Assembly (NCBI RefSeq): GCF_013201935.1
Contig: NZ_CP053833.1
Coordinates: 1,054,001 to 1,118,000 of the forward strand
Reading direction: 5' to 3'
DNA: 64,000 bases
Source: Arcobacter cloacae
Lineage (GTDB): Bacteria > Campylobacterota > Campylobacteria > Campylobacterales > Arcobacteraceae
Shown: piece after piece, positions 7,174 through 9,084 of the stretch
How positions within the stretch are numbered: the first letter of the stretch is position 1
Layout: the number at the start of each line of letters is the position of its first letter
Notes under the pieces: generated by a model
The model's database searches: none
What the model was told of the DNA's origin: nothing
What the model saw: only the letters and a program-made list of their open reading frames with translations
Program-made: the position numbers and the translations under genes

Positions 7174-7728
7174 TTATTCCCATCTTTTGTATAAATTATT
7201 CTCTATTTTTAATAAATCAAACCATTTTCCAATCAAAAACTTTTCCATATCTTCTAAGCTTTGTTGATTACTGTAATAACCCAATATAGGAGGTGCAATA
7301 GTAACACCTAATTTAGATAAAGTTAGCATATTTTTTAAAGCTATGGTACTAAAAGGCATCTCTCTTGGTGCTATTATTATTTCTCTTTTTTCTTTTAACA
7401 TCACACTAAAAGCTCTAGTGATTAGGGAATCAGATATTCCAACAGCACATTTTGCTAAAGTATTTTGTGAGCAAGGAAGAATAATCATTTTATCAACTTT
7501 GAATGAACCTGATGCAATACTAGCTCCAATATTTGAATCTTTAAAAATTGTTACATTTTTAAACTCTTTAAATATTTCATCTGTTGAAATATTATTTTCA
7601 AGTTTTAGTGCTTTTTTTGCACTTTTTGAAAAAACAGCAAACACTTCTATATTTTTAGGTATTTGTTTAATAAAATTTATACCCAAAATTGAGCCACTAG
7701 CACCTGAAATCGCAACAGTTATTTTCAA
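7174..7728 (-). CDS. ubiX: Flavin prenyltransferase
   Basis: UbiX attaches a dimethylallyl group to FMN to make prenyl-FMN, the cofactor of UbiD-type decarboxylases. The 184-residue Rossmann-like flavoprotein shows the N-terminal VAISGASGSILGINFI motif and the conserved PCSQNTLAKCAVGISDSLITRA and PREMPFSTIALKNMLTLSKLG segments. Translation starts at TTG (7728-7726), with an AAAGG site six bases upstream. It is the first gene of the operon running to tauE. The promoter must lie in the 7729-7929 interval shared with the divergent recombinase-like gene. Confidence 0.94.
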   Translation of the reverse strand: MKITVAISGASGSILGINFIKQIPKNIEVFAVFSKSAKKALKLENNISTDEIFKEFKNVTIFKDSNIGASIASGSFKVDKMIILPCSQNTLAKCAVGISDSLITRAFSVMLKEKREIIIAPREMPFSTIALKNMLTLSKLGVTIAPPILGYYSNQQSLEDMEKFLIGKWFDLLKIENNLYKRWE

Positions 7729-7929
7729 GAAAAACCTTTGATTTTAATATATGAAGAACGATAATATCAAAAAAAAACTTTCAATAATTTTAACTCTATT
7801 TTTATAGTTCTTTTAAGTTGTTGTTAATATTTCAAGTGATAACATATTGTATAAATATTATATATAAATATTAAACATAATGTTTAATAAAAAATATTTT
7901 AATATTACTTAATGTAAAAGGATTTATTT
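7729..7929. other. Divergent intergenic region between ubiX and the recombinase-like gene
   Basis: This ~200-base, extremely AT-rich gap should hold the promoters of the ubiX operon (leftward) and of the 7930 gene (rightward). Several TATA-like hexamers occur around 7848-7870, but I cannot fix the start points. The clear structural element is a perfect palindrome at 7869-7889. An AAAAGGA ribosome site at 7916-7922 lies seven bases before the ATG at 7930. I see no ORF or structural RNA. Confidence 0.6.
7869..7889. promoter_or_regulatory. Perfect 21-bp palindrome, candidate operator
   Basis: Arms TATTAAACAT and ATGTTTAATA are exact inverse complements around a single central A. The site lies 40 bases upstream of the start codon of the resolvase-fold gene at 7930, in the position of a promoter or operator. 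In AT-rich DNA short dyads are common, but two perfect 10-base arms containing a C and a G are less so. It may bind the adjacent protein, whose C terminus looks like a helix-turn-helix. That link is inference. Confidence 0.5.
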
Positions 7930-8565
7930 ATGTCAAAAATTTTTACTTATATTAGAAAAAATCAAAATAATGAAAAATATACTCAAATACAAGAAGAGTC
8001 TATAGAAAAATATATAAATAAACATAATCTTAAAATTGATAAAAAAATTGAAATTAATATTAGTACTCCTAATGAAGAGAAAAATATTTTACAACTTTTA
8101 GAAAATTGTGAAAAAAATTCCACTTTAATAGTTTCGAATTTAAATGTTTTTGGAAGATCAATAGAAACAATTTTAGAAATAGTAAAATTTTTATTATCAA
8201 ACAAAATTAGAATAATTGTAGCAGAACAAAATCTTGATTTATTAGATGACAAAGATATGTTAACTCAAATGATTTTAGGAGTTATAACAATGACTTTGAC
8301 TCTTGAAAAAGAATTAATGAGTTTAAGAACAAAAGAGGCTTTAACAGCTAAAAAGTTAAATGGTATAGCTTTAGGAAAACCAAAAGGAACTATTCAAAAA
8401 TCAAAATTTGATATGCAAAGAGATAAAATAGAAGAGCTTCTTTCTGTTGGATTAAGTGTTAGAAAAATATCAAAATTACTAGGTTACAATAATCATATAG
8501 GATTAAACAACTATGTAAAAAAAAGGGATATAAAAATTAATCTAAATAAGCTAAAAGATAATTAA
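7930..8565 (+). CDS. Serine recombinase-fold protein lacking the catalytic serine
   Basis: The 211-residue protein has the resolvase/invertase layout: an N-terminal catalytic-like domain, a long helix E with EKELMSLRTKEAL (~126-138), the hinge GIALGKPKGT (~145-154) and a C-terminal resolvase-type helix-turn-helix (~165-200, GLSVRKISKLLGY). The active site is altered. YIR keeps the first arginine (R9), but the usual YxRVS serine position is N11. The DRLGR motif reads NVFGR at 72-76, so Asp and the second Arg are lost while R76 remains. It is therefore unlikely to cut DNA and may act as a DNA-binding regulator. No flanking repeats or invertible segment are seen. Confidence 0.8.
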   Translation: MSKIFTYIRKNQNNEKYTQIQEESIEKYINKHNLKIDKKIEINISTPNEEKNILQLLENCEKNSTLIVSNLNVFGRSIETILEIVKFLLSNKIRIIVAEQNLDLLDDKDMLTQMILGVITMTLTLEKELMSLRTKEALTAKKLNGIALGKPKGTIQKSKFDMQRDKIEELLSVGLSVRKISKLLGYNNHIGLNNYVKKRDIKINLNKLKDN

Positions 8566-8627
8566 AAAAGCCTTTTTATAATGGTTTAAAAAAAATATAG
8601 TAAAATAAAAATTAATTAAAATTGAAT

Positions 8628-8631
8628 GGAG
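8628..8631 (+). promoter_or_regulatory. Ribosome-binding site that fixes the rplI start at GTG 8638
   Basis: GGAG at 8628-8631 lies six bases before GTG at 8638. Starting there gives a protein beginning [13 protein letters not shown], the canonical L9 N terminus. The in-frame ATG at 8626 overlaps this site and would add four foreign residues, so it is rejected as the start. Confidence 0.85.
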
Positions 8632-8637
8632 TTTATA

Positions 8638-9084
8638 GTGAAAGTATTATTAACAAAAGATGTAAAAACTTTAGGAAAAGCAGGTGAAATAAAAGAAGTT
8701 GCTGATGGATATGGAAAAAATTTTTTAATTGGTAAAGGTTTAGCTTTACACGCAACTACTGAAGTATTAAATAGATGGAAAGCTGAACAAAAAAGAGCAG
8801 CAGAAAATGAAGCTAAAGAGATTGCTGCGGCTAAAGATTTAGCTGAAAAATTAAATGCAACAAAACTTACAATAAAACACAAAGTTGGAGCAAATGGACA
8901 TCTAATAGGTTCTGTTACAAATAAAGAAATTGCAGAATCATTAGAACAACAATTCTCTATAGTTGTAGATAAAAAAAATATATCTTTAGACAAAAAGATT
9001 AAATCAATTGGTATTTATGAGGTTGATTGTAAATTAGGGCACGCAATTCATGCAACTTTAAAAGTTGACATAATTGGAGAATAA
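8638..9084 (+). CDS. rplI: 50S ribosomal protein L9
   Basis: From the GTG at 8638 the protein is 148 residues, the standard L9 length. The N-terminal RNA-binding domain reads [30 protein letters not shown] in two overlapping conserved parts, followed by the long connecting helix (alanine/lysine/glutamate-rich, ~40-75) and the C-terminal domain. L9 sits at the base of the L1 stalk. Its stop is three bases from hslV. The rplI-hslV-hslU order matches Campylobacter. Confidence 0.95.

Follow-up and report, generated by a model that had tools for sequence, protein, structure and literature searches.

The window (the whole 64 kb stretch of Arcobacter cloacae DNA that was analysed) contains an open reading frame on the forward strand at 7930-8565, which starts with ATG and encodes a protein of 211 amino acids. 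NCBIfam models identify the neighbours on the other strand as dTMP kinase, coaD and a UbiX-family flavin prenyltransferase, and those downstream as ribosomal protein L9, HslV and HslU. The features discussed below are as follows, with the support for each in brackets.

7174-7728, reverse strand: divergent ubiX, given for context only (NCBIfam UbiX family flavin prenyltransferase, 227 bits)
7812-7828, forward strand: TTTAAG-N5-GTTAAT, a conserved block upstream of site 1 (position conserved in the family alignment)
7840-7854, forward strand: site 1, TAACATATTGTATAA, the most conserved array site, upstream of the palindrome
7869-7889, no strand assigned: site 2, perfect palindrome with its core at 7875-7883 (palindrome test, PWM)
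7907-7915, forward strand: site 3, ACTTAATGT, directly followed by AAAAGGA (7916-7922), the ribosome-binding sequence (sequence, PWM)
7930-8565, forward strand: disarmed small serine recombinase (PF00239, NF009949, AlphaFold2 model, Foldseek)
7960-7962, forward strand: AAT codon of Asn11, which replaces the nucleophilic serine (alignment of 82 orthologues)
8143-8157, forward strand: NVFGR (residues 72-76) replacing D/S-R-L-G-R, with the R68 equivalent lost and the R71 equivalent kept (alignment)
8404-8529, forward strand: C-terminal helix-turn-helix, residues 159-200 (conservation; helices in the AlphaFold2 model; HTH_38 below cut-off)

A preliminary description of this DNA had reported Asn at the serine position (N11), the motif NVFGR and a perfect 10+1+10 palindrome 40 bases upstream of the gene, and all three were confirmed at the positions listed above.

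The protein matches the Pfam Resolvase domain (PF00239) with 63.4 bits against a cut-off of 23.3, and its best NCBIfam match is the model for the Mpi master DNA invertase (NF009949), with 92.5 bits and residues 4-203 aligned i.e. nearly full-length. Mpi-type invertases are thus the best named family model, but the 272-bit cut-off was not reached and the window protein is not a member by that measure; no other NCBIfam model matched with any strength, and the HTH_38 match (18.3 bits) lies under the Pfam cut-off of 27. We built an AlphaFold2 model from 17 sequences (mean pLDDT 76, with an average below 60 over residues 131-160). The order of its elements is that of a small serine recombinase, and the best Foldseek matches to it were mostly gamma-delta, Tn3 and Sin resolvase structures. 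TM-scores by query length were 0.37-0.50 among the top eleven matches, and these low values probably arise because the two domains are placed differently. The Resolvase domain and the resolvase fold match identify the protein as a member, by descent, of the small serine recombinase superfamily, with the same fold as the Tn3/gamma-delta resolvases that head the Foldseek matches.

We compared 82 distinct orthologues with 32 relatives from outside the orthologue clade, having dropped L033, L037-L045, L047, L052 and L131-L139 (repeats or a fragment) and then one identical sequence (83 to 82) before residues were counted; the catalytic arginine positions R8, R45, R68 and R71 are given in resolvase numbering. 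At the nucleophile position the orthologues have N in 73 cases, S in 7 and I in 2, i.e. serine has been lost in 75/82, whereas 31 of the relatives have S and one a gap. The R68 equivalent has been lost in all 82 orthologues (V in 77, S in 3, A in 2) and is R in 31 relatives and K in one, while the R125 equivalent is K in 82/82 orthologues and R in 30/32 relatives. Other positions have been retained, with R71 conserved in 82/82, R8 in 78/82 and E124 in 79/82; R is found at the R45 equivalent in 8/82, a column that is less certain because of alignment gaps nearby. By this alignment the window protein has neither the nucleophilic serine expected of an active enzyme (it has Asn11) nor the full catalytic arginine set, and it differs from the Tn3/gamma-delta resolvases in having no usable nucleophile and no R68 or R125 equivalent.

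The preliminary description had proposed the conservation of N11 as a check on its reading. Asn is present in most of the orthologues, but not in the seven with Ser, although these also have no R68 equivalent. Three of the seven apparently form one clade (L067, L069 and L119), of which L067 and L069 were placed by the tree described below inside an Asn clade (L119 was not in the tree). The other four (L091-L093 and L112) come from one genus with small genomes, referred to here as g8; these copies sit on a long branch and combine Ser at the nucleophile position with Lys for the R8 equivalent.

Mean column identity among the orthologues rises along the protein, from 0.61 (residues 1-60) through 0.75 (61-105) and 0.84 (106-143) to 0.90 (144-200), as against 0.55-0.60 throughout in the relatives outside the clade. 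The helix-turn-helix is the best-conserved part of the orthologues, and the dimer helix and hinge are strongly conserved too, which, with the resolvase structures matched by Foldseek, bears out the earlier statement that fold, hinge and helix-turn-helix had all been kept. This rise toward the C-terminus means that selection seems to hold the dimer helix and the DNA-binding part rather than the active site.

Matches at orthologue level (E below 1e-38) were found in 96 of the 101 sampled Arcobacteraceae genomes, and mostly have an open frame across their full length. A match of any kind was found in 97 genomes, but the best match in one of these, G098, is an intact relative, hence the count of 96. 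Among the genomes with no orthologue match, G098 and G065 have ubiX followed by three and one array sites respectively and then the contig end, G021 has a partial match to ubiX, and the search of G020 and G039 found neither the orthologue nor ubiX. The named records among the relatives are from Aliarcobacter, Poseidonibacter, Halarcobacter and Arcobacter. When 298 genomes of the order (part of the family included) were searched, 41 had a match at E 1e-20 or better, 30 of them in the family and 11 outside it. All 11 of the latter keep Ser and a SRLGR- or DRLGR-type motif i.e. are intact recombinases, and no orthologue was found outside the family at this threshold, which strongly diverged ones would escape. 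A quick tree of 65 proteins (41 orthologues and 24 relatives) placed the orthologues on one side of a branch with an SH-aLRT value of 100 and a stem length of 1.28 changes per column, and comes with a warning that long branches meet, including those of the g8 copies.

With the catalytic residues gone yet the gene kept family-wide, this looks like a recombinase turned plain DNA-binding factor. The loss of the catalytic residues would also be expected of a decaying recombinase relic that is still awaiting loss. However, matches in 96/101 genomes, mostly with a full-length open frame, and the strong conservation of dimer helix, hinge and helix-turn-helix disfavour a relic, and we consider this explanation extremely improbable.

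The perfect palindrome upstream of the gene consists of TATTAAACAT and ATGTTTAATA on either side of a single A (10+1+10 = 21 bp, 7869-7889) and ends 40 bases before the ATG. One palindrome of this size is present in the 64 kb window, compared with an average of 0.73 in 30 first-order Markov draws; for the 201-bp intergenic region, such a palindrome turned up in 222 of 20000 draws. Since 0.73 are expected per 64 kb and the perfect form is present in just 2 of 71 distinct upstream regions (that of the window and one other), the palindrome alone is weak evidence. It is, however, the middle one of three ACA-WWW-TGT sites, which lie ~32 bp apart and in the window have their centres at -84, -51 and -19. 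The pattern AC[AT]WWWTGT is found here at 7842, 7875 and 7907, where 0.067 matches were expected and at least three occurred in 0 of 5000 draws; it was written after the sites had been seen, and has 10 further matches elsewhere in the 64 kb. Independent support for the array comes from its recurrence in relatives. The proposed check on conservation of the palindrome went against the perfect form, but the ACA-WWW-TGT core and its sister sites do recur.

To score this recurrence we used a PWM derived from the symmetric start AACAWWWTGTT, which favours palindromes. Of 81 upstream regions, 71 remained once identical and short ones had been removed; L033, L052, L075, L084 and the g8 copies had been excluded beforehand, and the g8 regions were scored separately, later. 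Sites with a score of at least 12 occurred 1.34 times per 150-bp upstream region (71 regions) as opposed to 0.005 times in mononucleotide-shuffled sequence, the PWM having been trained on the same regions. At a score of at least 8, sites fell in three zones at around -83, -49 and -18, with all three zones occupied in 28/71 regions and at least one in 70/71; in the remaining regions the first zone was paired with the second in 14 and with the third in 6, and stood alone in 13, the second stood alone in 7 and the third in 1, one region had the second and third together, and one had no site. In the PWM, the core C and G are the strongest positions. In L029, L032, L061, L062, L064, L067 and L069, the only strong site is site 1, which lies near -47 and is flanked by half-sites in most of them; L029 has a second site (score 10.7) further upstream. 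The g8 copies (L091-L093 and L112) have no site with a score of at least 8 in the 250 bases upstream.

The right arm of site 1, TGTATAA, contains TATAA and could double as a -10 box. Further upstream, the block at 7812-7828 resembles the HP1043/HsrA box of Helicobacter pylori, the motif given for HP1043 being two TTTAAG repeats with a 5-bp spacer (PMC5253667), and this likeness would put the gene in the network of such a regulator. Rfam gave no match in 7600-8700, a promoter scan was uninformative (13 found, 9.8 expected), and no terminator was found.

Along the array the half-sites alternate, and can be read either as ACA-N3-TGT palindromes or as TGT..ACA spans of 28-32 bp. ACA is present at the 28-32 bp span in 52/71 regions compared with 0-3 of 70 at six other five-base windows, and 19/71 have none. 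Eleven of the 52 regions with a TGT..ACA pair have no second palindrome; as six of these 11 apparently belong to a single clade and most of the others to a second one, they reflect few events. Putative dimers could therefore be arranged in two ways: each palindrome may be one dimer site (model A), or dimers may span the TGT..ACA between neighbouring palindromes (model B). The constant spacing of 3 bp, towards which the matrix is biased, speaks for model A, as does the fact that site 1 is conserved in both its arms. Model B is favoured by the 11 regions with no second palindrome and because the DNA-binding domains of resolvases recognise motifs at site ends (PMC9943657). The upstream half-site that model B requires overlaps the HsrA-like block.

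We also looked for the motif elsewhere. The genome search for the palindrome that the preliminary description had called for produced no excess of note: with up to three mismatches there were 7+7 matches (7 places, both strands) in the window's own genome against 5+5 for the reversed control, and the palindrome was rejected as a genome-wide recognition site on these counts. In the same genome, the array pattern gave 8 match rows (3 of them the gene's locus) against 4 control matches, and TAACATNTTGTATAA with up to one mismatch gave 10 matches against 16, so that these related patterns were not enriched there. Across the 101 genomes, TAACATTNTGTATAA, the sister form of site 1, had 37 exact matches in 35 genomes, of which 28 were at the gene's locus and 9 away from it, the latter compared with 19 for the reversed control; the window's own genome has no exact match because its site reads TAACATATTGTATAA, one base different. 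A looser pair pattern found the gene's locus in 28 of the 101 genomes (counted by hand, and including L203 (G079:C18), where a contig end truncates the locus) and gave 35 match rows at 30 other places, somewhat more than the 20 control matches. Six of these 30 places were viewed, and proved to be coding (L204), at gene ends (L199 and L205) or intergenic (L200, L201 and L202). A large regulon with the same motif is therefore unlikely, although small or degenerate target sets remain compatible with these results. Conservation of the helix-turn-helix exceeds what one drifting self-target would seem to require, which hints that the protein may have further targets, invisible to motif searches.

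Some of the places viewed contained repeats of their own. In G012 (L200:1503-1541) there is a similar intergenic palindrome pair, TAACATAATGTTA and ATACATTATGTTATA, upstream of a gene that we take to be rhodanese-like. In G055 (L201:1464-1509) a repeated AACAATATGTATAATATT lies between genes, the downstream one resembling bioA, and is possibly a biotin repressor site. The sequence CTGTCTCTTATACACATCT or its complement is present at contig ends, at the start of G079:C18 (L203) and in the L099 upstream region; we take it to be a sequencing adapter, which at a contig end would explain the split gene in G079.

The conservation of the helix-turn-helix above that of the rest of the protein could also be explained by a nucleoid-associated function, in which a basic resolvase-derived dimer would bind AT-rich DNA widely and with weak specificity, and the array would be its autoregulatory high-affinity site. 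The predicted pI of the window protein is 9.5 (orthologue median 9.4) and the gene is a core gene of the sampled family, both of which fit this explanation. However, such a pI is ordinary for DNA-binding proteins and the motif is not spread over the genomes searched, and we consider a nucleoid role rather unlikely.

The position of the array between two divergent genes raises the alternative, also put forward in the preliminary description, that the protein regulates its neighbours, i.e. that it acts on ubiX-coaD-tmk through the shared intergenic array. In 77 of the 83 fetched orthologue loci (those with at least 700 bases of upstream flank; some repeat one genome) ubiX does lie upstream of the gene. 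The six other loci are L077 and L078, from two genomes of one genus (g4), and four g8 loci. In the g4 genomes ubiX is no longer next to the gene; array sites remain at the gene (two in L077, one in L078), while the ubiX upstream regions (L189 and L190) have none. The g8 gene is not beside ubiX either, and there are no sites at the four ubiX upstream regions, though none are present at the g8 gene. The sites therefore stay with the gene in the two g4 genomes, which speaks against control of ubiX; we regard this alternative as quite improbable.

A further possibility is that the protein guards against mobile elements, either by occupying the res-like sites of invaders or by forming dead mixed oligomers with active recombinases. 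Intact relatives (L094-L111 and L113), which are 27-38% identical to the window protein, are indeed scattered through genomes of the same family. The window's own genome contains two further serine recombinases with RVS and DRLGR intact, L002 (G000:C1:208703-209101) and L003 (G000:C1:234799-235290). The L003 match contains one in-frame TGA, and genes near another intact relative (L096, seen in the longer stretch L138) appear to us to resemble an IS3-type transposase. A few intact-relative upstream regions have half-sites, TTGTAAAGTTTA or TTGTCAAGCTT, akin by eye to TGTATAAGCTT, but this likeness was judged on few rows and several intact groups have other inverted repeats. We consider a guard function very improbable.

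The same upstream regions bear on where the array came from. Resolvases can repress their own genes from res. Several intact relatives have a GC-containing core such as AACGACCGTT upstream, read by eye, and this reading of some of their upstream regions suggests that the array may descend from a res site. Tn3 res has three dimer-binding sites, two of which (II and III) play an architectural, non-catalytic part (PMC9943657); in the array, by comparison, no crossover-like site was recognised by eye and the spacing is near-even at ~32 bp. The window gene also differs from those of Tn3 and gamma-delta in occupying a fixed place in the core genome and not a transposon. At its regulatory site II the Sin dimer is catalytically inactive and architectural on DNA (PMC2428073), but Sin is an active enzyme at site I, whereas the window protein is itself disarmed. 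Tentatively, and at somewhat less than even odds, a recombinase with the remains of its res site may have been captured once by the family ancestor and have become a core non-catalytic regulator or architectural factor, with the accessory half kept and the cutting half discarded.

The best explanation of these results, to which we assign a probability of about 0.62 as a joint reading, is that cleavage was lost before Arcobacteraceae diversified, the gene having since been kept as a core gene of the family, and that the resolvase-derived, non-catalytic dimer binds its own promoter and probably represses itself. The protein probably still forms a resolvase-type dimer, the helix-turn-helix of which would bind the ACA and TGT half-sites that alternate along the promoter region of its gene, in a mode like that of a resolvase dimer at the non-catalytic accessory sites of res. 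Bound in this way it would lie over the -10 box, leader and ribosome-binding region and thereby repress its own transcription, negative autoregulation being the most economical reading. The presence of the full triad in just 28/71 regions, and of the first zone alone in 13, are points against it, as are the lack of sites at the g8 copies, the seven orthologues with Ser, the palindrome-favouring start of the PWM, the high conservation of the helix-turn-helix and the somewhat raised count of the pair pattern away from the locus. Of the conversion into a dimeric DNA-binding factor proposed in the preliminary description, the catalytic loss, the conservation of the helix-turn-helix and the operator-like promoter sites speak in favour, while the part concerning control of ubiX was not supported.

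Among the matches listed, the open-access literature gave no description of a disarmed serine-recombinase family like this one. Resolvases acting on their own promoters are already known, and the interest here lies in the family-wide fixation, the dead form and the private array. The transcription factors recruited by hosts from mobile elements that are treated in the relevant section of PMC8987985, some of them autoregulating, are Xre or RHH proteins, and no serine recombinase is named there as one. If true, our reading would provide a clean case in which an entire bacterial family has exapted a site-specific recombinase as a DNA-binding factor, with its operator array preserved, and would offer a testable route from transposon resolvase to host regulator. 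It would also mean that the architectural and catalytic functions of serine recombinases have been separated in nature.
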